64,000 bases of DNA. Origin: Paenibacillus sp. NAIST15-1. Lineage in GTDB: Bacteria; Bacillota; Bacilli; Paenibacillales; Paenibacillaceae. Shown piece by piece: positions 7,424-27,960 of this stretch. The translations under genes were made by a program, and so were the position numbers. The notes under the pieces are model-generated. The model saw only the letters and a program-made list of their open reading frames with translations, ran no database searches and was not told the origin of the DNA. The DNA lies in contig NZ_BBYF01000019.1 in assembly GCF_001894745.1 (NCBI RefSeq), positions 1 through 64,000 on the forward strand, in the 5' to 3' direction. Every line of letters begins with the position of its first letter. The stretch's first letter is position 1.

Positions 7424-8785
7424 ATGCTCACCTATGATCCGGTTATTTTCAGCCGCATACTTACCGGGCTAACACTGTTCGTACATATCGTATACGCCAC
7501 TATTGGTGTCGGAATGCCGTTAATGATTGCACTTGCGGAATGGATCGGCATTAAGCGAGGCGACTCTTATTATCTGCTTATGGCGCGCCGCTGGGCTCGC
7601 GGGTTCACGGTTACTGTAGCTGTAGGCGTCGTAACAGGGACATGCATCGGTCTACAATTGAGCTTATTGTGGCCGAACTTTATGAGGGTTGCAGGACAGG
7701 CTATCGCTTTGCCTTTATTCATGGAGACATTCGCGTTCTTTGTGGAAGCAATCTTTCTAGGCATCTATTTATACACCTGGGATCGCTTCCCGAACCGCAT
7801 CTATCATTTTCTTCTGCTCGTTCCGGTCGCTATAGGCTCCTCAGCCTCTGCCTTCTTCATTACGGCTGTTAACGGCTTTATGAATGCACCACGCGGATTT
7901 GATTTGGTGAACGGGAAAATGACGAATATTGAACCCATCGTAGCGATGTTCAATCCAGCCATGCCGACGAAAGTTGGACATGTGCTCGCAACCGCCTATG
8001 TGACTTGCGCCTTCATTATGGCAGCCATCTCAGCGATGTCTCTGCTGCGCGGCCGCACTCACGCGTATTACAAAAAAGCGCTCCGCATGTCGATGGTGAC
8101 CGCCCTGCTCTTCTCTGTCGCAACAGCCGTCATCGGCGACTTCTCAGGCAAGTATTTGCATGAATATCAGCCCGAGAAGCTGGCGGCAGCAGAATGGCAC
8201 TTCGAGACGAAGTCTCATGCTGAGCTCGTCTTCGGCGGCATTCTTACCGAAAATAATGAGGTGAAATACGGATTTCATATTCCATTTGCCTTGAGCATAT
8301 TAGCGGGCGGCACCCCTGATACTGTCGTGAAGGGATTGAACGATGTGCCCGTTGAGGAGAGACCTCCGCTTAAGGCATCCCACTACTTCTTCGACTCCAT
8401 GGTGTTTATCGGCATGTATTTAACAGTCGTGTCCCTATGGTATGTCATCTGGTTCATGCGCAATCGCCGGCAAAGTCTGAAAAAGCCGCATAATCGTCTG
8501 CTGCTAAGAGCCGTTGTGCTTGGCGCTCCGCTCTCTGTGTTGGCTATCGAATTCGGATGGATGTTCGCTGAGATTGGACGGCAGCCTTGGATTCTATGGA
8601 AAGTCATGACCGTAGCCGAGGGCGCAACAACATCCAATCACGTGGATACAATGCTGTGGCTGTTCACGCTGCTCTATCTTGTCATTACAGTGACAGCCAT
8701 TCGGGTGCTCATTCGCATGTTCAAGCACAACCCTGCTGAAGACGAAATTAAGGCACTTGGCTGGGAAGGAGGAGGGAAGAAATGA
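7424..8785 (+). CDS. cydA: Cytochrome bd ubiquinol oxidase subunit I
   Basis: This 453-residue integral membrane subunit carries the haems of the bd-type terminal oxidase, which reduces O2 to water with quinol electrons at low oxygen. Visible marks are the N-terminal haem b595 histidine region (FSRILTGLTLFVHIVYA), the GRQPW motif (GRQPWILWKVMTVAEGAT) and about nine membrane helices. The periplasmic Q-loop is of the short Firmicute type. The stop overlaps the cydB start (ATGA), so the two subunits are translationally coupled. No cydC or cydD assembly genes are found nearby. Confidence 0.95.
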   Translation: MLTYDPVIFSRILTGLTLFVHIVYATIGVGMPLMIALAEWIGIKRGDSYYLLMARRWARGFTVTVAVGVVTGTCIGLQLSLLWPNFMRVAGQAIALPLFMETFAFFVEAIFLGIYLYTWDRFPNRIYHFLLLVPVAIGSSASAFFITAVNGFMNAPRGFDLVNGKMTNIEPIVAMFNPAMPTKVGHVLATAYVTCAFIMAAISAMSLLRGRTHAYYKKALRMSMVTALLFSVATAVIGDFSGKYLHEYQPEKLAAAEWHFETKSHAELVFGGILTENNEVKYGFHIPFALSILAGGTPDTVVKGLNDVPVEERPPLKASHYFFDSMVFIGMYLTVVSLWYVIWFMRNRRQSLKKPHNRLLLRAVVLGAPLSVLAIEFGWMFAEIGRQPWILWKVMTVAEGATTSNHVDTMLWLFTLLYLVITVTAIRVLIRMFKHNPAEDEIKALGWEGGGKK

Positions 8786-9834
8786 GTTACGAATTAGTCG
8801 GCATCACCGTTCTATGGATCTTCCTGTTCGGCTATCTGCTTGTTGCGTCCATCGACTTTGGGGCAGGATTCTTCAGTTATGTCAGCTCGGTAACGGGCAA
8901 GCGCCATATTATCCATAACGTGATTGAGCGCTACTTGTCCCCAGTATGGGAAGTGACGAATGTGTTCTTAGTCTTCTTCTATATCGGCTTGGTTGGATTC
9001 TTCCCAGATTCCGCGTACTACTATGGAACAGCACTGCTCGTCCCAGGCAGTCTAGCGCTCATTCTGCTTGCCATACGAGGATCGTACTATGCCTTTAGCA
9101 CATATGGGATTAAGAGTAATCGTATCTACCTGTTTCTATATGGAGTCAGTGGATGGCTTATTCCCGCTGCGTTATCCACCGTGCTCGCGATTTCTGAAGG
9201 AGGGTATATCACGGAGAGGGCTGACGGCAGCATTTCATTCCAGTTCCTGAGCCTGTTCACTAACATCTACCCCTATTCCGTTATCGTGCTCGCCCTGGTC
9301 AGCGTGTTGTACATTTCCGCCATGTTCCTGACGTACTATGCATCCAAAGCTGAGGATGAAGGGGCACTCAACATTGTGCGCAAATATGCCCTGATGTGGT
9401 CCGCGCCCACCATCCTAGCCAGCTTGTTCGTGTTCTACGCCATTCAGGGTCATAATGCGGAGCACTTTGCCAATATGTTGGATCGGGCATGGATGTTCGT
9501 TCTGTCCTTCCTGTTCTTCGTCATCGCCGTCTATTATGTATGGAGAAGACGCCGTTATGGCTTAGCGTTTCTATGTGTCATCTTACAATTCGGGTTCGCA
9601 TGGTTTGGATACGGTTCGGCACATTTGCCTTATGTGCTCTACCCCTACATCAATGTCTATGAGCATGTCACGAATCCGGCCATGGCCTATGCGCTGATCG
9701 TTGTATTCGTCCTTGGACTGCTCATTCTGCTGCCTTCCCTCTTCCTGCTTCTTCGCCTGTTCCTGTTCGACGCGAACTATGTGAAGGGGATCAAGAATGG
9801 CACAGGTGGACGGTCGGGCAAGAAGCATATTTGA
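8782..9834 (+). CDS. cydB: Cytochrome bd ubiquinol oxidase subunit II
   Basis: This is the second membrane subunit of the bd oxidase, 350 residues with about eight helices. The N-terminal motif LFGYLLVASIDFGAGF is the usual CydB signature, and SPVWEVTNVFLVFF and PGSLALILLAIRGSYYAFS follow. It overlaps cydA by 4 bp and is followed by a short cydS-like gene 97 bp downstream. Together they form a plus-strand oxidase operon that ends in a hairpin terminator. Confidence 0.94.
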   Translation: MSYELVGITVLWIFLFGYLLVASIDFGAGFFSYVSSVTGKRHIIHNVIERYLSPVWEVTNVFLVFFYIGLVGFFPDSAYYYGTALLVPGSLALILLAIRGSYYAFSTYGIKSNRIYLFLYGVSGWLIPAALSTVLAISEGGYITERADGSISFQFLSLFTNIYPYSVIVLALVSVLYISAMFLTYYASKAEDEGALNIVRKYALMWSAPTILASLFVFYAIQGHNAEHFANMLDRAWMFVLSFLFFVIAVYYVWRRRRYGLAFLCVILQFGFAWFGYGSAHLPYVLYPYINVYEHVTNPAMAYALIVVFVLGLLILLPSLFLLLRLFLFDANYVKGIKNGTGGRSGKKHI

Positions 9835-9931
9835 TAGGATGAGAAGGCATTCATGCAATGCATGCAGCGGATGAAGCGACAGATATGAATGTCGCGCAGT
9901 GCTATGTTAAATATAAAGGAGCACAGAGCAG

Positions 9932-10036
9932 ATGAATCAATTTTTAATCTTTTATGCCCCGTTCATTATTGTTATTGCTTTCGTCATTGCCCTATTTTAT
10001 TGGGGCTCACGAGACATGAATGAGGATGATATTTAG
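9932..10036 (+). CDS. cydS: Cytochrome bd small subunit, CydS-like (34 aa)
   Basis: A 34-codon gene runs from ATG 9932 to TAG 10034-10036, with AAGGAG ten bases upstream. The product begins MNQFLIFYAPF, has one hydrophobic helix and ends in a short acidic tail (SRDMNEDDI). CydS is the single-helix third subunit seen in the Geobacillus bd oxidase structure, encoded after cydB. Size, start pattern (an FYAP-type motif), topology and position all fit. The assignment is by resemblance and context. Confidence 0.75.
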   Translation: MNQFLIFYAPFIIVIAFVIALFYWGSRDMNEDDI

Positions 10037-10062
10037 ATCGCTGTCTCTCGCATCATCCATGG

Positions 10063-10096
10063 AGAACCTTGCCACCGTACGGGCAAGGTTCTTTTC
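10063..10096 (+). terminator. Terminator of the cyd operon
   Basis: An 11-bp perfect stem, AGAACCTTGCC (10063-10073) with GGCAAGGTTCT (10082-10092), is followed by TTTTC. It lies 26 bp after the cydS-like stop codon. Confidence 0.85.
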
Positions 10097-10224
10097 ATTA
10101 ATGGAACTGATTAGTCCCCTACGCAATATATCGTCATTTCGACATTTTTTAACTTTTGATCCTATTTAGACAATCCAAACATTCCCGTTCGACATATTGT
10201 ATGGTAAAATATAGGAGGTTATGA

Positions 10225-11544
10225 TTGAAAATGAGAGTAGGTGCATACAGGATGGCACAGATATTGTCCATCGGCGAATTAATACATAGTTATAGGCGTA
10301 ATAGCGGCATGACTTTAGCGCAATTATCAGAAACATCCGGCGTTCATAAAGGCACAATATCCAAAATTGAAAACGAAGACGTCAAGAGGCCGGAATATAC
10401 GACGCTCCGTCCGCTTGTCGAAGCACTGCACATCCCGTTGGATACGGTTGTCGAACTGTACTTAAGCGTGGACAAACGAGCAGAAATGCGGCTGCATATA
10501 CTGCAGGACGTGATCCAACATTCAGGCTCCGCCGAACTGGCACGAACAGTAGGAGCCAAATTTCTGGAATCACCAAGCGACGACAGCCACTCCTTAGTCG
10601 AACGCCTATATAGCTTCACAGCTTCAGTGGAACACAAGGAAATTCGATTGGCCTTGTACCAATTGATCGTTGACTACTCACGCGATCACGGTATTATGCC
10701 TTTTTTAGCAAAAGGCTTGCTACAGGTGTACCTCATCGAACGAGATGATTTTACTCGAATGCGAGCAGTTTACAATGGACGCAAATATATTGTGGAATAC
10801 GCCCATTTTTTAAGCTGCGAGGACAGAATTATTCTGTATTACAAATTAGGAATTCACGCGTTTAATTTATTTTTATACCGGGAGAGCATTGATTTCTGCC
10901 TTCATGTACTCCAAGAAGCAGATGCAGACAATTGGTACTACATCAATGCGCTTGGCATATTGCGCGATTCTTATTTCTATCTTGAGGATTACGACAAGTC
11001 CGAATATTACTCAATACAATATGAAAAATATGACTACCCACACATCAAGGCGTATTCACTGCTTATGAAGGCATCATTAAACGCAAGAAGGGGAAACTCC
11101 GAAGTAGCTATCGAACTGCTTAAGAACTTTCTAAAAACATGCAACCAGGATGATGCTCTTCTAGCAATCAATCAGTTATTAAAAATATATTTTAAAGGAA
11201 ATCGGTTATATGAAGCCGAACAATTACTTTCATACCCAATATGTCCAAAATCCATTAGTACGAATAACCCCAACATAATCTCGCAGCTAGCCGAATATTA
11301 TTATCACCGAGCTGAATATTTCATTGCCGTTGACGATCTCGATAAAGGGATATCTGATTTTCTGGAGAGCGCGCTGCACTATTCAAAAATTAATGACACT
11401 GATCACGAAAAAGAATGCATAAATCAAATCGTGCATAGCCATCTGCAACAAAACCTTGACATGCCCATATCCACATTAGCTAAATTGAATACATTTTATA
11501 AACGCAGCGCAGCTAAAGAACATAAATTGGAGGGGTTCATGTGA
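10225..11544 (+). CDS. RRNPP-type peptide-responsive transcriptional regulator (HTH + TPR-like repeats)
   Basis: This 439-residue protein has an N-terminal XRE helix-turn-helix (about residues 15-70; GELIHSYRRNSGMTLAQLSE, HKGTISKIENE). A long helical C-terminal part of TPR-like pairs follows (LGILRDSYFYLEDYDKSEYY, LLMKASLNARRGNSEVAIEL). This is the layout of PlcR/NprR/Rgg/AimR receptors, which bind short secreted and re-imported peptides. The TTG at 10225 has AGGAGG six bases upstream; an in-frame ATG at 10231 is the alternative. Its stop overlaps by 4 nt the GTG of a 36-codon pre-peptide gene, the arrangement expected for a receptor and its own signal. Targets are unknown; nearby candidates are the spo0E-like frame and the nitrilase gene. 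Confidence 0.85.
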   Translation: MKMRVGAYRMAQILSIGELIHSYRRNSGMTLAQLSETSGVHKGTISKIENEDVKRPEYTTLRPLVEALHIPLDTVVELYLSVDKRAEMRLHILQDVIQHSGSAELARTVGAKFLESPSDDSHSLVERLYSFTASVEHKEIRLALYQLIVDYSRDHGIMPFLAKGLLQVYLIERDDFTRMRAVYNGRKYIVEYAHFLSCEDRIILYYKLGIHAFNLFLYRESIDFCLHVLQEADADNWYYINALGILRDSYFYLEDYDKSEYYSIQYEKYDYPHIKAYSLLMKASLNARRGNSEVAIELLKNFLKTCNQDDALLAINQLLKIYFKGNRLYEAEQLLSYPICPKSISTNNPNIISQLAEYYYHRAEYFIAVDDLDKGISDFLESALHYSKINDTDHEKECINQIVHSHLQQNLDMPISTLAKLNTFYKRSAAKEHKLEGFM

Positions 11545-11651
11545 AACGTTTCAAAGCAAAGCTATACAATGGTCTCCTTTTCACCGTTATTATCGGACTA
11601 ACAACATTTTTGTCGACATTGGGTAGTGATAACGGACATCACCCATGGTAA
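11541..11651 (+). CDS. Candidate secreted signalling pre-peptide (36 aa) of the RRNPP receptor
   Basis: A GTG at 11541 overlaps the receptor stop (GTGA). It is preceded by GGAGGGG with a 5-nt spacer, located inside the last codons of the receptor gene. The 36-residue product has a basic N-terminus (KRFKAKLYNG), a hydrophobic core of about 15 residues and a polar C-terminal tail (GSDNGHHPW). This is the build of NprX/PapR/Phr-type pheromone precursors, which are exported, cut and re-imported as a 5-10 residue C-terminal peptide. A terminator begins right at the stop codon, so the operon holds only these two genes. Processing and binding are inferred. Confidence 0.72.
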   Translation: MKRFKAKLYNGLLFTVIIGLTTFLSTLGSDNGHHPW

Positions 11652-11678
11652 GAGTGCCAACTTGGTACTCTTTTTTTA
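11651..11678 (+). terminator. Terminator of the receptor/peptide operon
   Basis: The stem AGAGTGCCA (11651-11659) pairs with TGGTACTCT (11663-11671), with one G-U pair and a 3-nt loop, followed by seven T. It starts at the last base of the pre-peptide stop codon. Confidence 0.85.
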
Positions 11679-11788
11679 TTTTAAAAAGTTTCCCTTTAAT
11701 CCCTTTTATTAGAATTCAATAGACACACTATATACTAATAGTTAAGACAGGGCGCCCCATTATTCCCCCTAATCCGAGGTGACGGACT

Positions 11789-11959
11789 ATTATATACTGT
11801 GATGATCTATTAAATAAAATCGATGGACTCAGGCAAGAACTAACCTGCCTCGTGAACCAAAAGAATAATCTTATCGATGACGAAGTCGTCCAAATTAGCC
11901 AACTTCTAGATATTTACATACTGGAACATCAAAAGAGATGCATGAAAAAAAAAGCATAG
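11789..11959 (+). CDS. Spo0E-like aspartyl-phosphate phosphatase (non-canonical or lost start)
   Basis: A plus-strand frame reads DDLLNKIDGLRQEL near its start and ISQLLDIYILEH near its end, then MKKKA and TAG at 11957-11959. The two-helix pattern with the S-Q-x-L-D motif is that of the Spo0E family, which dephosphorylates Spo0A~P and delays sporulation. No ATG, GTG or TTG is found in frame before the motif. A good ribosome site (GAGGTGA, 11776-11782) sits six bases before an ATT at 11789, giving 56 residues. So either an ATT start is used or the start codon was lost by mutation. Confidence 0.6.
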   Translation: MIYCDDLLNKIDGLRQELTCLVNQKNNLIDDEVVQISQLLDIYILEHQKRCMKKKA

Positions 11960-12328
11960 GTAAGGTTTAGTTGGCGACCAATTAAATGTGTATTACAAAG
12001 CGATGACGAAGTAGCTTCCGCCAATTGCGATTATACCTGTCCTTGAACAAATCGCAGAGTAGTTCGAAAAATAGGATAATGCCAAATCGGCGTCGTTCAG
12101 ATGCCGGGTTTTACGTATTTTCACAATACTCTTGTCTGGTTCTGCCACAGCTAATGAGCGGGCCGATCAGAAAATTATGAGATTTATAACCACATGCCCT
12201 TTTGCCCATGCCACGTGCATGAAAATAGAAGCGTCTTGAACATTATCTGACGGATGTTCAAGACGCTTTCTCATGTCATCTCACTTTATTAGATTAATGC
12301 TCTTCTTTGCTTTGGGAGTGTGACAAAA
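11960..12328. other. Intergenic stretch without a recognisable gene
   Basis: This lies between the Spo0E-like frame and the nitrilase stop codon. Apart from the hairpin at 12229-12268 no gene, promoter or repeat could be supported. The part around 12000-12200 may be decayed coding sequence but no family was recognised. Confidence 0.5.
12221..12268 (-). terminator. Strong inverted repeat, probable terminator of the nitrilase gene
   Basis: A 15-bp perfect stem, AAGCGTCTTGAACAT (12229-12243) with ATGTTCAAGACGCTT (12254-12268), has a 10-nt loop. On the minus strand it is followed by CTATTTTC. It lies 60 bp after the nitrilase stop codon. Confidence 0.7.
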
Positions 12329-13333
12329 TTAAAAGGAAGCATTTTCGCCTGAAAAGTTTCGACTGCCAATCTGCAGATTGATTTCCTCATAAGTAATTTT
12401 CTTAGTCTCGTTATCTCCAAACTTACGAACAACAGGTGTAGGATTTTGATTAAAATTCATACTTAAGCTTTGGTTAGAATAGTGACCCGCAGGATCGATG
12501 TAATATTTATAATCAATTATTTTCTCTATATCTATATCAGCATAAGCGATTCCTTCTGTTTCTGCAGGGATCATATCGCTAATTGGTTCTCCATCAGGTC
12601 CATAAATACAAGTATGTCCGCTCTTGAATGTATCGAAGTATTCTTTTTGTTCAGGTGTTAAACAAATCATATTTTTCATTTCTTCCGAATATATAGATGA
12701 TGTCATTAAAACAAAGGTTTGAGTTGAAATAGCATAATATCGACTTGAGATTTCATCATCAAAGTACCCTGGCCAGGAGGCTACATGTACTTGTTCATTT
12801 TGTGAATTCATTGCAAGCAGATTTAAAGGAACCTGGTGTTCCCAGCACATCAGTCCACCCAAATTACCAAGCTCCGTTTTAAATACTGGCATCAAGCTTC
12901 CACTTCCGTCTCCCCATATAAGTCTTTCAGCAACAGACGCTCTCATTTTTCGATGTTTTCCGATTAAATCCCCCTTGGGATTAAACCATAGTTGAGTTAA
13001 ATATAAAGATCCACCATCTTTTTCACTACAAGAAATACATACGTAAGTTTCGTGTTTTCTAGCTGCTTCACTTATTTTTTGAATAGCTAAGCTAGGAATC
13101 TCAACTGCATTTTTGTAGAGATCATGATAGAATTTTCTTGTATATTCTGGATGACCAATAAATGCAAACCAAGGATAACCGGGAAGAAAAGCTTCGGGAA
13201 AAGCAACTAATTTTGCATCATTAGATGCTGCTTCAGCAATCAATTTGCAAGATTTTTCAACTGTTGCATCTAAATCCAAGTATACAGGTGCAGCCTGGAC
13301 AGCTGCTGCGCGATATTTAGGATAATTTCCCAC
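12329..13333 (-). CDS. cynD: Cyanide dihydratase-type nitrilase
   Basis: This 334-residue enzyme belongs to the nitrilase branch of the C-N hydrolase superfamily. The catalytic triad is visible: Glu47 (FPEAFLPGYPW), Lys129 (KHRKMRAS) and Cys163 (GGLMCWEHQVP). The sequence closely matches my memory of the Bacillus pumilus cyanide dihydratase through about residue 290 (IGHPEYTRKFYH, SWPGYFDDEISSRYYAI, ETFKSGHTCIYGPDGE-like), with a different C-terminal tail. That enzyme turns cyanide into formate and ammonia and forms spirals. The start is GTG at 13333 with AAGGAG nine bases upstream. The gene is visibly A+T-richer than the core genes and sits at the edge of the accessory island, suggesting transfer. 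A related aliphatic nitrilase activity cannot be excluded. Confidence 0.85.
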   Translation of the reverse strand: MGNYPKYRAAAVQAAPVYLDLDATVEKSCKLIAEAASNDAKLVAFPEAFLPGYPWFAFIGHPEYTRKFYHDLYKNAVEIPSLAIQKISEAARKHETYVCISCSEKDGGSLYLTQLWFNPKGDLIGKHRKMRASVAERLIWGDGSGSLMPVFKTELGNLGGLMCWEHQVPLNLLAMNSQNEQVHVASWPGYFDDEISSRYYAISTQTFVLMTSSIYSEEMKNMICLTPEQKEYFDTFKSGHTCIYGPDGEPISDMIPAETEGIAYADIDIEKIIDYKYYIDPAGHYSNQSLSMNFNQNPTPVVRKFGDNETKKITYEEINLQIGSRNFSGENASF

Positions 13334-13684
13334 AATAAATTTCTCCTTTTGTAATTATTTATAATTATTTAAGTTCAAATAATTATTTAACTACAAATTA
13401 ACATTTAAGAATCCATTTGTAACCATCCACTATTTATCGACTTGACCATCCACTTTCCATTTTTGTTAAATTGATTAAAGAGAAATACAAATAGCCTTCA
13501 GCATAAACTGGAGTTAATGATTATGTGAACGGGTACAATAAACACCGAAGTCATGGAACACAAGGCTATATGAGCCCAGTTGATTAAAAAAATTGACCCT
13601 AAAAAAAGTTGTCTAGTTTGGTGTTGACAGTCCATACAGCCATTTTAGAAAATTTTCATATGGTTGAGGGGAATAAAGGTTAAG

Positions 13685-15982: not shown

Positions 15983-16015
15983 GCCGTAAAGGGAAAATGA
16001 CATTCCCTTTACGGC
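15983..16015. repeat. Hairpin between toxin cassette 4 and its immunity gene
   Basis: A perfect 13-bp stem, GCCGTAAAGGGAA (15983-15995) with TTCCCTTTACGGC (16003-16015), has a 7-nt loop. A T-run lies on the plus-strand side only. For minus-strand transcription it sits between the toxin stop and the immunity ribosome site. Confidence 0.7.
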
Positions 16016-16031
16016 ATATTTTTAAACGTAT

Positions 16032-17324
16032 CTATCTCAGCTTTATGACTGTACCCGTTAAACTTTTGTGTTTCCTTTTTATGAAATTCCCATATTCATC
16101 TGCATCAGCAAACCAATGAAGTTCATTGCCTCTCCTTTCAAATACCTTAAAAGCGGAGCCACCATGTCCGGTTGTATCTTTTGCCCACCAATAACCTTTC
16201 TTCGTATTATCTTGGTAGGCTGTGATTGTATCTCCATTAAATTTATAGGTAACTTTTGCTTTGGCATTTGTTTTTATATCCCATTTTGTTGTTTTATTTG
16301 CTCTTACCTTTCCACCGACTTCTCTAGCTTTTCCTATGCCCCAGATTATTGTCCCCAATGAAGCCAAAGCTTCCGCAAAGGAAATTTCCTGATGCCATTT
16401 ACTGTAATCCTTGGCTAATTCCGCTCTTGCCCAGTCCGCATTTCCTGCACTATTCTTGTATGCACTTGTTTGCGTTAATAAACCAAACAAATAATTAAAA
16501 CGATTATTATCATACACATCTGCGAACTCTTGACTTAACAAGTTATAAGCGTATGAATATGCTCTACTTTCGGTAGAAGTTATCTTCATAGTCGCTTCGA
16601 GAATGGAATTCAACTCTGACGGTATATATCTGTTCCCACTAGGATCGATATATTTCAACGGATTATTTTGCACATACGTATACAGATTCAGCGTCAGCGG
16701 GTTACCCAGTTCCCCTTCATACGTATCCTCATTAATAAACCGCCCTATACTTGGATCATACCATCTTGCGCGCAAATATTGCAGATTCGTTGTCGCATCC
16801 CAGTATTCGCCCGAGTAACGGAAAATGTTCGGGACTCGCTCCTCCTGAGCCAGTGGATTGCCCCAGATATCGTACGTATAGCGGTTCAATACATTGCCTT
16901 GTGCATCCCGAATCTCCGTAATGTCGCCGTGTCCATTGGATACGTAGTACTGCATACCTTGTCCTGGAACCTGACGAGCCAGAATCTTGCCGTAATCGTC
17001 ATGGACATACGATGCTGTAATCGTGATGCTGCCGTTCCCTTCCACCTTGCCTTCGGCTACGATTTTCGCCCGATCATCGTAGTAGTAACGGGTCGTCACA
17101 CCGTTTTCGGCGCGCTCCATCATCAGGTTGTCGCCGTTGTAGCGGTAGCTGACGGCTTTGCCGTCTTCCGTCGTTACTTGGGTCAGACGGTTGCGGCTGT
17201 CGTATGCGTAGCTGGCTCCCTTGATGTTCGGTACCTGATCGCTTTGTAACGTACTGCGGCCGGAGATTGTACGTATCGCATGTCTCATCGAACTGGCTTG
17301 AGGTCGTGTTGTTATGGAACACAA
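16032..17324 (-). CDS. Orphan Rhs C-terminal toxin cassette 4 (5'-truncated)
   Basis: A 430-residue frame begins inside an Rhs core. Residues ~30-230 are YD/Rhs repeats (YDSRNRLTQVTTEDGKAVSY, YLRARWYDPSIGRFINEDTY), almost the same as the C-terminal core of the full-length Rhs at 28697. A shared pre-toxin domain follows (STESRAYSYAYNLL to LASLGTIIWGIGKAREVGGK), then a tip of about 90 residues (GYWWAKDTTGHGGSAFKVF, HWFADADEYGNFIKRKHKS). The tip resembles RNase-type ends of polymorphic toxins but I do not assign a family. The first ~30 residues are out of register with the core (the proper frame lies next to it), so the 5' end is frameshifted and there is no signal peptide. It is followed by the DUF3885-like gene. 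Confidence 0.7.
   Translation of the reverse strand: MCSITTRPQASSMRHAIRTISGRSTLQSDQVPNIKGASYAYDSRNRLTQVTTEDGKAVSYRYNGDNLMMERAENGVTTRYYYDDRAKIVAEGKVEGNGSITITASYVHDDYGKILARQVPGQGMQYYVSNGHGDITEIRDAQGNVLNRYTYDIWGNPLAQEERVPNIFRYSGEYWDATTNLQYLRARWYDPSIGRFINEDTYEGELGNPLTLNLYTYVQNNPLKYIDPSGNRYIPSELNSILEATMKITSTESRAYSYAYNLLSQEFADVYDNNRFNYLFGLLTQTSAYKNSAGNADWARAELAKDYSKWHQEISFAEALASLGTIIWGIGKAREVGGKVRANKTTKWDIKTNAKAKVTYKFNGDTITAYQDNTKKGYWWAKDTTGHGGSAFKVFERRGNELHWFADADEYGNFIKRKHKSLTGTVIKLR
16312..17290 (-). repeat. Repeated Rhs core/pre-toxin segment, copy in cassette 4
   Basis: The DNA from the pre-toxin domain through the last Rhs core repeats is almost the same as 20877-21850 (cassette 2); the part up to 23322 matches cassette 1 (22908-23322), and the core part matches 29285-29900 of the full-length gene. 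Near-identical blocks of this size are substrates for homologous recombination. Confidence 0.7.
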
Positions 17325-17380
17325 AAGGAACCTTGAACGGTATGAAACCTTTCAAGATCCCCAAGGTGTTTGTTTCACTT

Positions 17381-17656
17381 TTATGCATTTATATAATATT
17401 TAAGTATGTCATGGCGTAATTTATCAATTAATTCATCTTCTTTTAATGAAATAGGGTATAAATCACCATCCTCAAACACAGTATTAGACGCTTCATCATA
17501 ACTATTTGCAAATTCAATAACAAAAGATCTTAGACCTTTTACAAAAGTTATTTTGTAATATGTTCCTCCATATAATAAAAGCGGAGTACCATTTACGAGA
17601 ACCTTTTCAAATTTCAACTCTTGAAATAAATTATCGATTTTCTCCTGTATCTCCAT
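17381..17656 (-). CDS. Probable immunity protein, paralogue of 22309-22575
   Basis: This 91-residue acidic protein starts MEIQEKIDNLFQELKFEK. The ATG at 17656 has GGGAGG just upstream, which is preferred over an in-frame ATG at 17698. It is clearly related to the 88-residue protein at 22309-22575: shared NLFQELKFEK/GLFRELQFEK, YKITFVK/CRVTFIK, IEFANSYDEA/IEYADSYDEA and EDGDLYPISLKEDELI/EDGDLFPVSLGEDELI. Each gene follows a toxin tip of the same type. The toxin tip in front of this copy is decayed, so this is an immunity gene kept without a working partner. The family name is unknown. Confidence 0.65.
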   Translation of the reverse strand: MEIQEKIDNLFQELKFEKVLVNGTPLLLYGGTYYKITFVKGLRSFVIEFANSYDEASNTVFEDGDLYPISLKEDELIDKLRHDILKYYINA

Positions 17657-17663
17657 AGATCCT

Positions 17664-17880
17664 CCCTTACGGCTTAAACAAGTTTCCTTCCATATCATAG
17701 CGTTGCATACTGTTTTACCTGACGATAATTGAAATATGGTATATCTCCATGATGCCTACTTCTAGGATGATACTGTAATATCCTGTCACCACCCCCAATT
17801 TGCTTTAAAACCACCACCATGGGCGATGACTGTCTTCTAATCACCGCTTCCCACTTGTACGTCCACATTTCAGAAAACAT
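17664..17880 (-). pseudogene. Decayed toxin tip, paralogue of the tip of cassette 1
   Basis: The central frame holds GGDRILQYHPRSRHHGDIPY, nearly the same as the tip of the cassette at 22591 (GGDRILQYHPGSRHHGDIPY). Before it, a neighbouring frame reads GGGFKANWG; after it, other frames read LSSGKT and RYDMEGNLFKP with a TAA just before the immunity ribosome site. At least three small frameshifts are needed to rebuild the domain. There is no Rhs core in front of it. Confidence 0.65.
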
Positions 17881-17904
17881 TATACGAAGTGGATGAGGGT
17901 AAAA

Positions 17905-17947
17905 TTCTTTCGGAGCGTGCCGCCCGATTCATTCGGCACTGGGTGGG
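17905..17947. repeat. Island hairpin element, copy 2
   Basis: It has the same element as at 13685: TTCTTTCGGAGC, then GTGCCG (17917-17922) pairing with CGGCAC (17934-17939) around CCCGATTCATT, then TGGGTGG. It lies between the decayed tip and the terminator of the CPCC gene at 18007. Confidence 0.65.
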
Positions 17948-17985
17948 TTAAAAAGAAAGCCTTGAAGGACTTATCCCTCAAGGCT
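17948..17985 (-). terminator. Terminator of the CPCC immunity gene
   Basis: The stem AGCCTTGA (17958-17965) pairs with TCAAGGCT (17978-17985), followed on the minus strand by TTCTTTTTAA. It lies 21 bp after the stop codon at 18007. Confidence 0.75.
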
Positions 17986-18006
17986 GAACATGTGTTACAT
18001 TGTCAT

Positions 18007-18555
18007 TTATTTACTAAACTTCTCCAGTCTATCTGATTCAAGGAATTGTAACGAAGACTTGTTCACTACACCGAATTTAATAAAGTTTTCACGGGCTTGA
18101 GCAAGTGTCATGTGGTTGGGGGAACTATAATAGCTTGGGTCTGTACTTCCATCATCTTCCCAAAAGCATACTGGGCAAATATCGTATTCACCCTTTGTTG
18201 GAAGTGTCTTAAATTCACAACACGGACAACTATAAAATTCTTCCTGCACCCCCTCAACCTCCTGATTAGAATCCAGGATAGCTGTCACTCTCTTCGATAA
18301 ATACTCGTTTCTGACCCCAAGATACTTTTTTCTTAAAGCTACAAGTAACAATGCACTGTAAACTTCATTCATTACATCTTTCTGAGGTTCATCATAATTG
18401 AGTATCTCCGATTGCAAAGTTTCCGGCAACTTATCAAATTCGGGATCGTCTTGGTCTATCCCCCACCAGTCAATTAGGATTCCTTCCCGTTCTTCCTTAG
18501 ATAAATCTTCAATCGTTGTTTTTAAGATAATAGCTATTGCTTCATCTCGATTCAT
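18007..18555 (-). CDS. CPCC-family cysteine-rich protein, probable immunity protein of cassette 3
   Basis: This 182-residue protein has a helical N-terminal part and a C-terminal cysteine-rich domain CPCCEFKTLPTKGEYDICPV followed by CFWEDDGS and LAQARENFIKFG. This is the Cys_rich_CPCC pattern (two C-P-x-C knuckles that probably bind a metal), a family common among polymorphic-toxin immunity genes. The ATG at 18555 has GAGGTGATAAA upstream and follows the toxin-tip stop (18572) by 17 bp, so the two are one operon. A shorter protein of the same family at 28420 follows the tip of the full-length Rhs protein. Confidence 0.75.
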   Translation of the reverse strand: MNRDEAIAIILKTTIEDLSKEEREGILIDWWGIDQDDPEFDKLPETLQSEILNYDEPQKDVMNEVYSALLLVALRKKYLGVRNEYLSKRVTAILDSNQEVEGVQEEFYSCPCCEFKTLPTKGEYDICPVCFWEDDGSTDPSYYSSPNHMTLAQARENFIKFGVVNKSSLQFLESDRLEKFSK

Positions 18556-18571
18556 TTTATCACCTCACTTA

Positions 18572-19629
18572 TTAACCGCCACCGAGTGATTTAGCGAGAT
18601 CAATTGCGGCTTGGAATGGGTCAACAGATCGTCCATCATCTTTGTAAAATGTCCTTATTTGTCGATCTTTAATGTGACCTACAAGTACACGGCCTGATGA
18701 AGGGTCATATTTAACAAGGAAATTACCTACAACCTGTTCTTTGAACGAGGAGTTGGTTTCAGAAGAAAAGCCCTTCGCAAGTTTTAGATAATCGTTTTGG
18801 GAAATATCACCGAATTCATGTCCATGCTTTTCCCAATGGGGCTTTAATTTGCCACTACTAAACCCTTTCCAGTTTATCTCCGCACATGAGATATTATGAA
18901 CCCATATTCCCAAACTGCTAACATAATACGTATGGAAATCACCAACAGTAAATTGTATACCTTAACCATCTCAGCATGTATTACTTTGTTGACTTTGTCG
19001 ATTTTCAAGGTATTCCCGTTACTTTGTTGTAACTTATCCCCCACCTGTAAATCAGCCGCAAGCACCCAACCTTTTCCTTCAACCCAAAACGGATGGTTTT
19101 CGGTTGTTTCGATGAGTTGAACTCCTACCGTAAGTTCATAGGTGATCTCCTTATCATTTCGATACAGATGCGTTACTTCCTTGTAAGCCTGTTCGCCTGT
19201 TACTTCATTCTTGGAAAGAACCTTATCTCCGACTTCAAGGTCTTCGATATTCTTCTCCCCTTCGTCTGTTAATACTTTCGTCCCTGCAGTAAAGCAATTG
19301 CACTTTGCAAGTGCTTTTGTAACTTTACTAACTTTAGTTCCTACTTTAATTAATTTTGCCGGAGGCAAAAATCCCAACAACACAAGTCCCTTATCTGCTA
19401 ATGAGCTATTAGGATCCAATATGGTATTTACATCATCTAGTACAAAGAAATTAGCGCCTTCAACTGCCAATGTTTTACCTGCTTCGGTCTGTGCTTTTAG
19501 AATCGTCTTGCATTGCCCCGGACTCGCTGCACACGTCATTGCAGGTGTTGGTGCCATCGGTATCCCAATATGTCCACTAGGATCGTTATATTTCAGCGGA
19601 TTGTTCTGTACATACGTATATAGATTCAA
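18572..19629 (-). pseudogene. Orphan Rhs/HINT toxin cassette 3, frameshifted
   Basis: The frame from TTG 19629 (NLYTYVQNNPLKYNDPSGH, the end of an Rhs core) has its own linker, then a HINT protease-like domain (CNCFTAGTKVLTDEGEKNIE, ETTENHPFWVEGKGWVLAAD). It goes out of register after KVYN at about 18951. The tip is in the next frame (18572-18913): GIWVHN, then LKPHWEKHGHEFGDISQNDY and VVGNFLVKYDPSSGRVLVGH. One missing T in a T-run (AATTTACTG here, AACTTTACAG in the copy at 20490) explains the break. The tip resembles the H-x(3)-H-G-x-E-F-G RNase-like toxins. The 5' Rhs core is missing. A CPCC immunity gene follows. Confidence 0.7.
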
Positions 19630-19658
19630 TCTCAGCTACAGCATTGATGAGCATTAGG

Positions 19659-19700
19659 TTCTTTCTAGACATTCCGCTCGATTCATTCGGCACTGGGTGG
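19659..19700. repeat. Island hairpin element, copy 3
   Basis: This is a diverged copy: TTCTTTC, TAGACATTCCGCTCGATTC, then ATTCGGCACTGGGTGG. The right arm is kept and the left arm is partly lost. It sits at the 5' border of cassette 3, just outside the truncated Rhs core. A further partial copy (GGTTCTTTCGAGAAATACCG) is at about 15289-15308. Confidence 0.55.
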
Positions 19701-19744
19701 GGGTAAAAGAAAACCCTTGAGAAAGTTGCGTATTCCCCAAGGGT
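19701..19744 (-). terminator. Terminator of the Imm8-like gene
   Basis: ACCCTTG (19713-19719) pairs with CAAGGGT (19738-19744). On the minus strand it is followed by TTTTCTTTTACCC. It is adjacent to the stop at 19753. Confidence 0.75.
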
Positions 19745-19752
19745 GTAACCTA

Positions 19753-20133
19753 TTACTTATTTTCGTCTAGCTTTGATAATATATCTTTTTCCGTATAGAA
19801 CTGGATATTGTCATACTCCCAGTTCAAATGACGATTAATAGCTTTTGCGGCTTCTTCCCAAGTAGGTCGAATACAATCTTTGAGTATTTCTTTTATTTCT
19901 GTTTCTAACAATTCTAGCTCAAAGTTTTGAACAATGAATGTTGCTCTACAATTTAACATCTTATTTTCATTAAGACTTTTTATCACATACTCAGGTGTTA
20001 ACACTTGAAAATGAAAACAATCAGAACCGACATCATCTTCTTCAGCAATATAAGCTGTACCTCTTAATTTAGAGCCTTTCAAACCATCTTTAATTTCAAT
20101 GAAATCAATACCTTTGAGTACGGGAACAACCAA
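19753..20133 (-). CDS. Imm8-like immunity protein of cassette 2
   Basis: This 126-residue protein has the pattern FHFQVLTPEYV, FIVQNFELELLETEIKEIL and TWEEAAKAINRHLNWEYDNI. The last motif (T-W-E-E, then a helix, then W-E-Y) is typical of immunity family Imm8. The TTG at 20133 has GGAG seven bases upstream. It follows the stop of toxin cassette 2 (20154) by 20 bp and has its own terminator. The protein is intact although the cassette in front of it carries a nonsense codon. Confidence 0.7.
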   Translation of the reverse strand: MVVPVLKGIDFIEIKDGLKGSKLRGTAYIAEEDDVGSDCFHFQVLTPEYVIKSLNENKMLNCRATFIVQNFELELLETEIKEILKDCIRPTWEEAAKAINRHLNWEYDNIQFYTEKDILSKLDENK

Positions 20134-20153
20134 CTAATATCTCCACCTTTTTA

Positions 20154-21985
20154 TCATTTGACCTTGATATGAAAATTGCCACCCGTCTGAGTATCCTCTA
20201 AATTCAACTCAAGTCCTCCATTTTTCTTAAAACCATACCTTGCTACATATCTGCCATCGGAGCTTACATAAGTTGTATATCCGTTACTAGCAGTACCTTT
20301 TGTATAACCTTTTCCTACAAATTCAGTAGCTGCTGTTTGTGCTGTACTTTTTGTTATATAGCCAACTTCTAGACCTGCGTTTCCTGTGTTTGTTTTACCC
20401 ATAGTAGCGAGAGTTTTAGGGCTTAAGTTACACTCTGTATTATGAACCCAAATACCCAAATCCGTCACATAATACGTATGGAAGTCAGCTACTGTAAAGT
20501 TATAAACCGTAACTGGCTCATTCAGTTTAATGAACTCAACCTTTTCAATCGTCAGGTTGCTTCCGTCAGATTTTTGGAGCTTATCGCCCACTTGGAGTTC
20601 ATAGGCGAAGACCCACCCTTTTTCTTCTACCCAAAATGGATGGTTGTCTGTCGTCTCTATGATCTGCTCCCCAACGTTCAGCTTAATTATATCATCACGT
20701 TGGTTGCGGTATAACCCCGTTACTTCCTTATAAGCCAACTCTCCATCAGGGTTATTCTCATCCTTGGAGAGAACCTTATCTCCGACCGCAATGTCTTCGA
20801 TATTTTTCTCTCCATCGTCTGTTAGAACCTTGGTTCCCGCTGTGAAGCAGTTACATCCGCCAATCGCTCTAACCTTTCCACCAACTTCTCTAGCTTTTCC
20901 TATGCCCCCGATTATTGGTCCCAATGAAGCCAAAGCTTCCGCAAAGGAGATTTCCTGATGCCATTTACTGTAATCCTTCGCTAACTCCGCTCTTGCCCAG
21001 TCCGCATTTCCTGCGCTATTCTTGTATGCACTTGTTTGCGTTAATAAACCAAACAAATAATTAAAGCGATTATTATCATATACATCTGCATACTCTCAAC
21101 TTAACAAGTTATAAGCGTATGAATATGCTCTACTTTCGGTAGAAGTTATCTTCATAGTCGCTGCGAGAATAGAATTCATATCTGAAGGTATATATCTGTT
21201 CCCACTAGGATCGATATATTTCAGCGGATTGTTCTGTACATACGTATACAGATTCAGCGTCAGCGGGTTACCCAGTTCCCCTTCATACGTATCCTCATTA
21301 ACAAACCGCCCTATACTTGGATCATACCATCTTGCGCGCAAATATTGCAGATTCGTTGCTACGTCACAATATTCGCCCGAGTAACGGAAAATGTTCGGAA
21401 CCTGTTCCTCTTGTACCAATGGATTGCCCCAGATATCGTACGTATAACGGTTCAATACATTGCCTTGGGCATCTCGGATTTCCGTAATGTCGCCGTGTCC
21501 GTTGGATACGTAATATTGCAGACCATGTCCTGGTACCTGACGAGCCAACAGCTTGCCGGTCGAATCATGGACATACGCAGCTGTAATTGTGACGCTGCCG
21601 TTCCCCTCTACCTTGCCTTCCGCTACTATCTTCGATCTATCGTCATAGTAGTAACGGGTCGTTACGCCGCCTTCGGTGCGTTCTACCATCAGGTTATCCC
21701 CGTTGTAGCGGTAGCTGACGGCTTTGCCGTCCTCCGTCGTTACTTGGGTCAGGCGGTTGCGGCTATCGTACGCATAGCTAGCTCCCTTGATGTTCGGTAC
21801 CTGATCGCTTTGCAGGGTTCTGCGGTTATCCCGATTATCGTATGTGTATGCCTCGTTGAACTGGCTTGAGGTCTTGATTCGGTTCAGTTTATCGTAGCTA
21901 AATAGATAACCTGCTCTATTATCATTTTTAGCCGTAATATTTCTGTTGTTATCATAGGTATAGCTGTAGTTCGCGAATGCTTTTT
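20154..21985 (-). pseudogene. Orphan Rhs/HINT toxin cassette 2 with an internal stop
   Basis: From about 21985 to 21096 the frame encodes an Rhs core end (YDNNRNITAKND, YRYNGDNLMVERTEGG, ARWYDPSIGRFVNEDTYEGE) and the start of the shared pre-toxin domain. A TGA at 21096-21098 replaces an Arg codon (CGA in the copy at 23125). The frame goes on to 20154: rest of the pre-toxin domain, HINT domain (CNCFTAGTKVLTDDGEKNIE, TTDNHPFWVEEKGW, YNFTVADFHTYYVTDLGIWV) and a ~95-residue tip ending GGNFHIKVK. The tip family is not recognised. The downstream part (20154-21056) could still be made alone from an internal start. An Imm8-like gene follows. Confidence 0.7.
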
Positions 21986-21989
21986 AGCA

Positions 21990-22308
21990 CTTGTGCGTCA
22001 GTTCGTCCTGACTGTTTCCACTTTCAGCTTTGTTTCTTATTTCTCTATCGAGATAATAACACTCAGCTATCTGTTCTCTAACCGATTCATACTATGCTTG
22101 AACTTGTAAAATTAAACCTTCTTTTCTCTCTACTTACTGTACATGCTTTTCCATTTTTCTTATCCTCTTTTGATTTAGGAATGCAAAAGTAGGCTTATTC
22201 CTCCTTATCATTCAAGTAGAAATAAGCCTTTGAGAGAGTTTGTCAAGTTGTTGTATTGTACGATCTTCCTCTATGTTATTGATTACATTCAAATATTGTT
22301 CGATCACA
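21990..22308. other. Intergenic junction between cassettes 1 and 2
   Basis: The Rhs core of cassette 2 ends abruptly at about 21985 and unrelated A+T-rich DNA follows. Besides the terminator at 22186-22229 no gene was found. The stretch near 22230-22275 (TTTGTCAAGTTGTTG, TTGTATTGTACGA) resembles 28245-28300, which lies just after another immunity gene. Confidence 0.45.
22186..22229 (-). terminator. Terminator of the cassette 1 immunity gene
   Basis: AGGCTTAT (22191-22198) pairs with ATAAGCCT (22222-22229). On the minus strand it is followed by ACTTTTGC. Confidence 0.55.
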
Positions 22309-22575
22309 TTATGAATCAGCTATTTCATACCTCATTCTATTAATCAGCTCATCCTCACCTAATGATACTGGGAACAAATCCCCATCTTCAAATAGATTTT
22401 TTTCTGCTTCATCATAACTATCCGCATACTCAATTACGTATGATTCTAGTGTTTTAATGAAGGTTACTCTACAGTATTTCCCATCACGTACAAAAACATT
22501 TGTGTTGTTGAGTATTTCCTTCTCAAATTGTAATTCTCTAAATAACCCCTCAATTTTTTTCTCAATTGAATTCAT
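22309..22575 (-). CDS. Probable immunity protein of cassette 1
   Basis: This 88-residue acidic protein is a paralogue of the one at 17381-17656, with the same order of motifs (FRELQFEKEI, YCRVTFIK, IEYADSYDEA, EDGDLFPVSL, EDELINRMR). The ATG at 22575 is preceded by GAGGTG and is favoured over the ATG at 22590. The gene follows directly on the toxin tip stop at 22591. The family name is unknown; its function as an antitoxin is inferred from pairing twice with the same kind of tip. Confidence 0.65.
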   Translation of the reverse strand: MNSIEKKIEGLFRELQFEKEILNNTNVFVRDGKYCRVTFIKTLESYVIEYADSYDEAEKNLFEDGDLFPVSLGEDELINRMRYEIADS

Positions 22576-22590
22576 TTCACACCTCGCCAT

Positions 22591-23322
22591 TTATTCAATT
22601 AGATGGCCATTCATATCATATCTCTTTGTTCCTGACTTACCTGAGGATAGTTTATAGTAAGGAATATCACCATGATGTCTACTTCCCGGATGATATTGTA
22701 ATATTCTATCTCCTCCCCAGTGAACTCTAAAACCTCCTCCTTCTTCAAAAGGTATTCCTTTATATTTTTCACTCTTATTTAGCGCTGTTGGATTATACCC
22801 GTTATCCTTTAGATACTTATGAAGCTCATCTGGTTTAATCCCTTTTAGTTTACTTGGGTCATTCAGGATATCATCTAAACCATTAATATTTCTTACTGCC
22901 TTTCCACCAACTTCTTTACCTTTTCTTATGCCCCCGATTATTGGTCCCAATGAAGCCAAAGCTTCCGCAAAAGAGATTTCCTGATGCCATTTACTGTAAT
23001 CCTTGGCTAATTCCGCTCTTGCCCAGTCCGCATTTCTTGCACTATTCTTGTATGCACTTGTTTGCGTTAATAAACCAAACAAATAATTAAAACGATTATC
23101 ATCATATACATCTGCATACTCTCGACTTAACAAGTTATAAGCGTATGAATATGCTCTACTTTCGGTAGAAGTTATCTTCATAGTCGCTGCGAGAATAGAA
23201 TTCATATCTGAAGGTATATATCTGTTCCCACTAGGATCGATATATTTCAGCGGATTGTTCTGTACATACGTATACAGATTCAACGTCAGCGGGTTACCCA
23301 GTTCCCCTTCATAAGTATCCTA
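22591..23322 (-). CDS. Orphan Rhs toxin cassette 1 (5' end cut by the IS110 element)
   Basis: The open frame enters from the IS110 border at about 23322 (DTYEGELGNPLTLNLYTYVQ), passes the shared pre-toxin domain (NRYIPSDMNSILAATMKITS to LASLGPIIGGI) and ends in a tip of about 95 residues: LDDILNDPSKLKGIKPDELH, YNPTALNKSEKYKG, GGDRILQYHPGSRHHGDIPY, then a G-T-K-R-Y-D-M-N-G end. TTG 23283 is a possible internal start. The tip type occurs a second time, decayed, at 17664-17880. It lacks the signal peptide and nearly all of the Rhs core, so it is a displaced cassette that could only act after recombination with a full-length Rhs gene. Confidence 0.7.
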
Positions 23323-24850
23323 GTTTATAAAACGGAACTTAGAATAAAGAAGGTGGCAACTGGCTCTCTCAACCAATTACCACCAATTATATCATCCTAC
23401 TTGCACTCTCGGAATCGTTGGCATCTCATAAGCTGATTTCTTCTTCATCATTGCGTAGATGATATTAATCAGCTTCCTCATGATACATATAATGGCTTGC
23501 TGCTTTGTTTTCCCCTCGGACATCCGCTGTAAATAGTAAGCATGAAAATAGGGATTCCTCGGCACTCTTTTAGTGCGAGTAACGGCGATCTGACGGATAG
23601 CAAGGCTTTTGATGATGTCATGCAACTCTCGGTTTCCTTGCTTACTTTTATAGTTGCGCGACTTATTTCCTGAACCAACCATTACTGGAGCAACACCAGC
23701 AAAACGAGCCAGCTTATCCGCTGTTGGAAAACGATGAATATCACCAATCTCTGCCACAAGTTCCGCTGCTGTCACAATATCTATCCCTGTCATGGATTCT
23801 AGTTGGAAGCCAAGCTGTCCCATCAACTGCTCGATTTCAACTTCAACCCTAGCAATCTCTTTCTTGAAAAAGCTAGCTGACCTCACCTGACTGACCACAA
23901 CCGAATCACGTGAATCTTGAAAGTCACGATACGTATCACCATCAACGGAAATAAGAGATAATATTTGACCAGCCTTCTTATGGGAAAGCCCATTATTGCT
24001 ATGGCTTCGCAGAAACTCAGCTAATTTTTCCTCTGACAAGTCTTTCAATTTGTGCGGTGAAGGATAGGCTTCCCAGAAGGCTAACGCCGTTTTACCATCA
24101 ACTTCAGAGAAGAACTTCTTATAGCTTGGATATGGGTAACTAATCTGTTGATGTAGTTTCTTTACCGTTGCTGTCAGGCTTTTGGCAAACCATTTCCGCT
24201 GCGTGACAAGCTGACTAATCGCCCAGTACAAATCGATCGGCTTAGCATCAGGTAATCGCTCCAGTTCATCTCTCAATACCTTTGCAACACATTCAGCGTC
24301 CCAACTGTCAGACTTCTGAACCGTCACATGGCTCTGTCTTCTAGCATTTGCTAGTTTGGCATTGACCTCTTTCACCCAGCATTGATTTTCTTTAAGATAG
24401 ACAGCCAACCCTCTGCCGTAACCTCCTACATCCTCAAGCCCATAGACAACCGACAATCCTTTTTTGGCATACTTCCTAACTTCCTTAACGAGTAAGGGAA
24501 ATGCAGACGGCTTATTATCGAATTTAATTTCTCCTAACTTTTTGCTCCAACAGTCAATAATGACGGCTGTATGATGCTGTTTATGTAGGTCAACTCCTAC
24601 ATAAACAAGATTCTGCTGCTCAATCATTTTCCTCCGCTCCCTCTGTATTTGAATTGTTACTAATGAGTTTGATTCCAGTTCAATCAAGACTCGTTGCTAC
24701 TCAGACACTTGCTCCGTATGTATCAGCCCATTAGTAACCACTCAAACGAGTGGCTAGAACAACAATGGTTAAATAAGTTTGCATCCTCAGTTCGAGCGGT
24801 CACTGCCGCAAAGACACGTTAGCAATATCTCATTTATCTTCAATGCGTTC
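23323..24850 (-). mobile_element. IS110-family insertion element
   Basis: The element interrupts the Rhs core of cassette 1 at about 23322. It holds the transposase gene plus ~70 bp on its 3' side and ~220 bp of non-coding DNA on its 5' side. IS110 elements lack classic inverted repeats, so exact ends cannot be fixed from one copy; the right limit is somewhere before the recombinase stop at 24856. Confidence 0.6.
23392..24627 (-). CDS. IS110-family transposase (DEDD recombinase)
   Basis: This 411-residue transposase has an N-terminal RuvC-like DEDD domain (VYVGVDLHKQHHTAVIID, then YGLEDVGGYGRGLAVYL and AKLANARRQSHVTVQKSDSW) and a C-terminal Transposase_20 domain (MTGIDIVTAAELVAEIGD, RFAGVAPVMVGSGNKSRN, GNRELHDIIKSLA). 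The ATG at 24627 has GGAGCGGAGGAA upstream and is preferred over the frame start at 24687. IS110 enzymes are guided by a non-coding bridge RNA made from the element ends. Confidence 0.92.
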   Translation of the reverse strand: MIEQQNLVYVGVDLHKQHHTAVIIDCWSKKLGEIKFDNKPSAFPLLVKEVRKYAKKGLSVVYGLEDVGGYGRGLAVYLKENQCWVKEVNAKLANARRQSHVTVQKSDSWDAECVAKVLRDELERLPDAKPIDLYWAISQLVTQRKWFAKSLTATVKKLHQQISYPYPSYKKFFSEVDGKTALAFWEAYPSPHKLKDLSEEKLAEFLRSHSNNGLSHKKAGQILSLISVDGDTYRDFQDSRDSVVVSQVRSASFFKKEIARVEVEIEQLMGQLGFQLESMTGIDIVTAAELVAEIGDIHRFPTADKLARFAGVAPVMVGSGNKSRNYKSKQGNRELHDIIKSLAIRQIAVTRTKRVPRNPYFHAYYLQRMSEGKTKQQAIICIMRKLINIIYAMMKKKSAYEMPTIPRVQVG

Positions 24851-24855
24851 CTTGA
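24628..24855 (-). ncRNA. Candidate IS110 bridge-RNA region (5' non-coding end)
   Basis: About 220 bp upstream of the transposase hold no gene. In IS110-group elements this 5' end carries the bridge RNA with target-binding and donor-binding loops. The stretch contains short inverted repeats (for example CCACTCAAACGAGTGG at about 24736-24751). The RNA limits are not determined here. Confidence 0.4.
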
Positions 24856-25632: not shown

Positions 25633-25816
25633 TGGATTACCTCCCTGTTAACCCTAGCGTTACACGAATTAGAATTAATGTTACGCTAAAGAGTTATACC
25701 CTTAAAAGTATATAACTATTGTATTACCTTTAAGCGTATATATCAATGCTAGGATGGATAGAATATGATATAGTACGGTTAACAGTATGATGTATTTAGT
25801 GGAGGATTACTTTCCC

Positions 25817-26026: not shown

Positions 26027-26116
26027 ACATTTGAAAATGCAACCATAGTCGGTCGCTGGATGTGCTATGCCCTTTACTCCAATTCATTTCAAGCCTTTGG
26101 GTATAAACCATCCCCC

Positions 26117-26131
26117 CGATAACAGTTATCG
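26117..26131. repeat. Palindrome near the replication gene
   Basis: CGATAAC A GTTATCG is a perfect 15-bp palindrome between the XRE gene and the 3' end of the replication-like gene. A related ATCGTTATCGG lies at 26231-26241. It could be an operator or part of a replication origin. Confidence 0.4.
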
Positions 26132-27883: not shown

Positions 27884-27894
27884 CTCATCACCGC

Positions 27895-27955: not shown

Positions 27956-27960
27956 AAAGG

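Follow-up and report, generated by a model that had tools for sequence, protein, structure and literature searches.

The window analysed here, the whole stretch of 64,000 nucleotides from Paenibacillus sp. NAIST15-1 (contig NZ_BBYF01000019.1), carries a receptor gene, an overlapping propeptide gene and a spo0E-like gene, in this order on the forward strand. The receptor gene (10252..11544) encoded an XRE/SinR-type helix-turn-helix (HTH) domain at about residues 7–73 and nine helix pairs resembling tetratricopeptide repeats (TPR) at residues 77–420. A possible alternative start of its open reading frame (ORF) was TTG 10225; ATG 10252 was considered likelier because 14 of 15 aligned loci from the clade share an RTGGCAC start. 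The last codons of the receptor were ATG (11539–11541) and TGA (11542–11544), and within this ATGTGA (11539..11544) a GTG (11541–11543) opened a gene of 36 codons (11541..11651), which ended with TAA at 11649–11651 and overlapped the receptor by four bases (GTGA). Its Shine-Dalgarno (SD) sequence, GGAGGGG (11529..11535), was located inside the receptor 3′ end. The propeptide comprised a basic N-terminus, a hydrophobic core and a polar C-terminal tail, GSDNGHHPW (11622..11648), which is the presumed source of the mature peptide. An intrinsic terminator (11650..11680) followed directly and was found in all nine orthologues aligned; its hairpin (11650–11672) with the T-run had an energy of −12.7 kcal/mol (z −3.7), which was equalled by none of 200 shuffles. 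Beyond it lay the spo0E-like gene (11789..11959; PF09388, 39.6 bits, above the cut-off of 23), which would start at ATT or ATA and which contained SQLLD, a form of the Spo0E signature SQxLD. An earlier note on this DNA had already described the HTH and TPR-like repeats, the ATGTGA junction with its internal GTG and buried SD sequence, the terminator and the three-part propeptide, and all of these were borne out.

The architecture of the receptor was that of RRNPPA-type proteins (HTH plus TPR-like solenoid) according to Pfam, a PDB profile search and a structure model, in which the HTH and the nine helix pairs were predicted with a local confidence score (pLDDT) of 91. The best VIA-align match to this model was NprR, with 10% identity in that alignment, and generic TPR proteins scored near NprR and better in Foldseek. 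The receptor received no functional name from NCBIfam or PHROGs; its residues 5–419 matched phrog_32768, a group of unknown function (E 3.6e-69). At E 1e-25, with four candidates scored per genome, 20 of the 394 genomes searched in the bacterial family contained a member of the receptor family, including 17 of the 19 genomes of the window's genus. The loci compared below hold 83 receptor ORFs, some of them partial, which represented about half of the 174 receptor matches counted, mostly the better scoring ones.

The small ORF is selected as a protein. Among nine orthologues, dS was 1.38 and dN 0.33, giving a ratio of nonsynonymous to synonymous substitution (dN/dS) of 0.24; the ratio was 0.16 in the closest five orthologues and 0.27 in fourteen paralogues. 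The corresponding pN/pS values in the orthologues were 0.41 for the signal part and 0.43 for the tail, indicating that both were constrained. A strict scan required an SD sequence, 30–70 amino acids, a basic start and a hydrophobic stretch. Of 59 unfused receptor relatives, 47 were followed by a propeptide-like ORF of this kind, whereas dinucleotide shuffling of the downstream regions produced one in 6 of 1360 cases. Starts within the receptor were permitted in the scan and impossible in the shuffled control. Since 18 of the 47 ORFs began in this way, a case that the shuffles could not imitate, the fair count was 29 of 59. The four-base overlap (offset −1) occurred in 17 of the 47 loci with a propeptide, the window included. 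A chance ORF was rejected on the basis of both the dN/dS and the scan. The 12 unfused receptors that failed the strict scan were L017, three of P. alvei DSM 29 (L012), C5 and C26 of the own genome, L056, L068, L065, L081, one of L075, and L027; a looser scan gave candidates at L027 and L068. No propeptide was found at three of six further receptor loci scanned, and no RNA family was detected in an Rfam search of positions 9800–13500. The earlier note had proposed a search for short ORFs behind homologous receptors with a comparison of their tails, and had named a lack of conservation or random codon change as grounds against its proposal; the ORF proved to be conserved beside receptor orthologues with mostly synonymous change, and translational coupling between a receptor and the precursor of its own pheromone remained the best reading.

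A tryptophan in the tail is the hallmark of this receptor family. It was found within the last ten residues in 45 of 46 distinct propeptides and was the C-terminal residue in 29 of them, against a rate of about 13% predicted by random frames taken from these loci; the single exception ended with HPF. Three propeptides from the further loci also contained a tail Trp, and one of them had NDPGW. The residue before the Trp was Pro, Gly, Asp, Glu or similar among the 46, and the tail motifs of the family included HHPW, IHPW, IYPW, IFPW, VIPW, IMPW, DHGW, DTGW and NPEW. The tail with a final Trp, which had at first appeared unusual, was thus ordinary in its family. Distances between receptors and between tails were correlated (Mantel r 0.53, 22 pairs, reached in 0 of 5000 permutations), a value that includes the contribution of shared ancestry. 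The family-wide Trp makes the mature peptides guessable.

Conserved adjacency to the receptor, together with fusion, gave good support to Spo0E as the output of the system. In the own genome, each of the seven receptor loci had a Spo0E, which lay within about 1.4 kb in five and was fused in two; one of the five separate copies had an internal stop. Seven of the ten Spo0E matches in this genome lay at receptor loci, and when positions were randomized 200,000 times, no more than two separate Spo0E came so close to receptors. Around the 83 receptor ORFs, 33 had a separate Spo0E and 12 a fused one; in 29 no Spo0E lay within about 1.3 kb, and the sequence of the other 9 ended too early. In the window clade, propeptide and Spo0E were both present at 9 of 13 unfused receptors (the Spo0E of L014 was a partial match of 16 bits); the other four were L017 and three of P. 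alvei DSM 29. In L017 (G009), a transposase-like gene, named by eye, was found directly behind the receptor, at the expected place of the peptide gene and spo0E. The C5 and C26 loci encoded, between receptor and Spo0E, proteins of about 200 amino acids that had a signal-like start and matched nothing in Pfam (L153 2108–2704; L154, oriented 1960–2637, on the reverse strand). A PDB sequence search with the Spo0E frame of the window returned nothing relevant.

A probable but tentative promoter of spo0E was observed at 11719..11736, with a −10 element TATACT, a GACACAC block upstream and no good −35. It was partly conserved in the nine-orthologue alignment, in which the −10 region alone was retained. 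The GACACAC-type block was not conserved upstream of the receptor genes. A shared operator, TCGACAYATTRTATA, allowing up to two mismatches, was rejected because it was not enriched in the genome (57 sites vs. 65 for the reversed control). The earlier note had proposed both Spo0E and a nitrilase gene as outputs; the former stood, and the latter was rejected. The nitrilase gene (12329–13333) lay on the reverse strand, opposite to the receptor, and was found in no other receptor locus examined, most of which covered only 0.8–1.8 kb beyond the receptor. At its place, four longer arrays and L011 had a cyclase-like gene, one of which was scanned with Pfam and matched PF04199.

In some relatives, the last TPR helix ran straight into a Spo0E domain. 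PF09388 was matched with 38.8–43.0 bits at the C-terminus of all eight fused proteins scanned. Among the Spo0E matches listed for the genus (171 counted), 14 lay in frames of at least 300 codons, distributed over 8 of 19 genomes. A region search of a protein database returned 13 proteins, all of which bore an HTH and 12 of which had a precomputed Spo0E domain, and a protein of P. popilliae, sharing 79% identity with the window receptor, was also fused to Spo0E. The C12 locus of the own genome (L155, C12:5500-14500) comprised an intact receptor, a propeptide of 64 amino acids ending with EIAW, a Spo0E and then two tandem receptor-Spo0E fusions. The propeptide gene was kept by none of nine fused receptors tested, compared with 47 of 59 unfused ones. 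In five fusions compared, dN/dS was low in both receptor parts (0.12 for the HTH and 0.18 for the TPR) and 0.33 in the Spo0E part, indicating that both halves were under purifying selection. SQxLD was kept in 14 of 16 database members, and the model of a fused protein placed helices at 396–417 and 423–456 after the last TPR helix, with lower confidence (block means 58–75). Several fused genes were damaged or cut, e.g., L047, L048 and L152.

The fusion junctions varied, e.g., ECINQ-NKIN vs. ECINK-LENLND. In a tree of 71 receptors, five changes between the fused and unfused labels were needed, and the starred branches forced at least four. A single origin was rejected: on a quick tree, one clade of fusions had a log-likelihood 479 lower (p-AU 0.0008), a signal of multiple origins that could come in part from long branches or from gene conversion between copies in tandem. 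The receptor was probably joined to Spo0E on several occasions, each time losing its peptide gene and yielding single HTH-9TPR-Spo0E proteins. Such a fusion was not found in the open-access literature searched, including the available portions of PMC7425212, PMC10075063, PMC9765709, PMC12700828 and PMC7206700, and the words "fusion" and "fused" were absent from the available text of the last.

The window pair is likely an RRNPPA-class quorum-sensing system of receptor and propeptide, from a family next to AloR and with spo0E as its output, that is, a probable density signal and intracellular sensor adjoining the gene of a sporulation-control phosphatase. The propeptide would be translated by coupling from the end of the receptor, and its signal-like N-terminus may direct its export by the Sec pathway. 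Outside the cell, it would be trimmed to a short C-terminal peptide ending with HHPW, which would be re-imported, bind the nine-repeat TPR solenoid on its concave side and alter the action of the HTH at the separately promoted spo0E behind the terminator. In Alo13, according to the available text, the downstream spo0E is switched on by the receptor and off by the peptide (PMC7425212). By this analogy, crowding might lower Spo0E in the window strain and thus favor Spo0A~P; the terminator and the separate spo0E promoter fit such a scheme. The fused forms suggest that a second route may exist, in which the bound peptide would act on the phosphatase directly. We tentatively speculated, as a possibility short of even odds, that these repeatedly arisen proteins sense the peptide of a neighboring intact system and gate the dephosphorylation of Spo0A~P directly, as a Rap-like device with a different phosphatase and a retained DNA-binding domain. 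The available part of a 2013 PLoS Biology article described the mechanisms that regulate Spo0E activity or transcription as largely unknown (PMC3601992). The presence of this receptor family beside Spo0E at every receptor locus of one genome, together with its fusion to Spo0E in several lineages, makes Spo0E regulation directly testable with synthetic peptides. The interest is moderate for the window locus itself and high for the fusions if they are peptide-gated.

The order of receptor, overlapping propeptide and spo0E-like gene is also that of Alo13 in the same bacterial family, and the pair might be a plain AloR-AloP system, a further member of the P. polymyxa family. For comparison, the published primer Alo13_F was matched, with one mismatch, in 10 of the 394 genomes, and five were analysed. 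One of their loci encoded a propeptide ending with SHGRGG, identical to the published mature AloP13, and all five had an ORF of 74–75 codons, identified by position, at the place of the published spo0E-like gene. The window receptor had no significant BLASTP match to the five AloR13-type receptors (the best alignment, of 48 residues, had E 0.002), and the window family profile met only N-terminal HTH segments in their genomes. A profile-profile comparison (hhalign) was ambiguous, with a probability of 24% although E was 8.5e-4 over 372 columns. A member from the Brevibacillus phage Sundance matched AloR13-type receptors locally (26% over 111 residues, E about 1e-8), and distant kinship with AloR was therefore likely; the available text of PMC12700828 likewise places subfamily 08 as sister to AloR in a structural tree. 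Both receptor types nevertheless adjoin on one phage and one plasmid, and the AloR13-type tails are HGxGG-like whereas those of the window family carry Trp. Close sequence membership in AloR proper was thus rejected by BLASTP, family profile and profile-profile comparison, and we considered a plain AloR-AloP system quite unlikely.

The plasmid provides the link to a described group. On pBRLA33 of Brevibacillus laterosporus LMG 15441, an AloR 45–48% identical to the AloR13-type receptors, with an AloP-like peptide, adjoined a receptor that shared 28.9% identity with that of the window over 426 residues (E 1e-62). The available text of PMC10075063 reports that a plasmid of this strain has one AloR-AloP system and one of "cluster 8", so that by elimination the window-type receptor probably belongs to cluster 8. 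Subfamily 08 is described, in the part of PMC12700828 available, as an HTH-9TPR group of the Paenibacillaceae with a widespread DPG peptide motif, and the structure model of the window receptor had this architecture. The window receptor very probably belongs to RRNPP_detector cluster 8 / RRNPPA subfamily 08; that the two names denote the same set is suggested by their number and shared authorship. As far as we found, the group is a predicted one, with no experimental test in the literature searched. DPG was observed in none of the 46 distinct propeptides, including that of the window; the tails of Brevibacillus phage and plasmid relatives had DPGY in two of three and NPGY in the third, and one relative from the window's genus had NDPGW. 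The absence of DPG is compatible with membership because the motif is described as widespread, not universal.

Mobile elements carried further members. In the Brevibacillus phage SecTim467 (L118, 2977–6320), a window-type receptor, an unannotated propeptide (..AYTDDPGY) and Spo0E were directly followed by an AloR-type receptor, so that two signalling families adjoined on one phage. Sundance (L117, 2977–4871) had a receptor, an overlapping propeptide of 48 amino acids (..TDNPGY) and Spo0E. Window-type receptors were also found on plasmids of P. thiaminolyticus (NZ_CP106993, 59.6% identical) and P. larvae (NZ_CP020558, 31.9% identical).

Two other explanations bear on whether the pair is a working signal. 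The small ORF is short, hydrophobic and coupled to the receptor, with a terminator directly 3′ of it, and could in principle be a membrane mini-protein or a translated leader tuning the receptor mRNA instead of an exported signal. This was judged very improbable: a leader role leaves unexplained both the conserved tail Trp amid otherwise diversifying residues and the absence of the propeptide from all nine fused receptors tested, and the basic start, hydrophobic core and polar tail match exported RRNPP propeptides. A caveat to the signalling system proposed above lies in spo0E, which lacked ATG, GTG or TTG at the orthologous start. Positions 11789–11794 read ATT and then ATA, the ATA replacing the GTG start of several orthologues of the same spo0E type, and a product begun at the first usual in-frame start, GTG 11852, would be missing the initial part of the domain. 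The pair might accordingly be a relic of a decaying pheromone circuit; elsewhere in the genome, the C2 receptor was interrupted by a stop, the C2 Spo0E match also held a stop, the C5 peptide gene was frame-shifted and C26 had no propeptide. Against decay, the window receptor and propeptide were intact with low dN/dS for both, a receptor 98% identical was recorded from P. alvei A6-6i-x, and the ATT, which is a permitted start in table 11, sat nine bases after GAGG. A relic was considered unlikely, and a functional receptor-propeptide pair was preferred.

Elsewhere in the window, a CydS-like gene of 34 amino acids (9932–10036, forward strand; PF22282, 50.7 bits, cut-off 25) directly followed genes at 7424–9834 that we take to be cydA-cydB. 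The reverse strand at 16000–35500 presumably encodes a YD-repeat/RHS-like protein of large size, downstream of which lie several partial copies, and genes at 23392–24687 and 24856–25632 were taken to be transposase-like and recombinase-like, respectively. A PadR-like regulator, named by eye (36102–37034, reverse strand), resembled a gene flanking the receptor arrays in L047–L049.

The earlier note had compared the locus with NprR-NprX and Rgg/AimR systems; the coupled layout held, and subfamily 08 / cluster 8 and, by layout, Alo13 were nearer. Subfamily 08 / cluster 8 shares with the window the HTH and nine TPR-like pairs, the propeptide directly downstream, and the occurrence on chromosomes, plasmids and phages, whereas its published peptides show DPG and those of the window family carry Trp; with this locus, a predicted quorum-sensing subfamily gains a peptide code marked by a tail Trp. 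Alo13 of P. polymyxa has the same gene order; however, its full-length similarity to the window receptor was not significant, and its tail is SHGRGG instead of HHPW. NprR-NprX of the Bacillus cereus group differs in its peptide and neighbor gene. In Clostridium saccharoperbutylacetonicum, five of the seven spo0E-like genes are located downstream of QSS1, QSS2 and QSS5, according to the available text; these QssR-QssP systems resemble the window in this linkage but belong to another receptor subfamily (PMC7206700). The fused relatives, as peptide-gated phosphatases of the sporulation relay, would be comparable with Rap-Phr. Rap uses an N-terminal domain of its own to act on Spo0F~P, whereas the fusions add a C-terminal Spo0E domain, with Spo0A~P as the presumed target, and keep the HTH.
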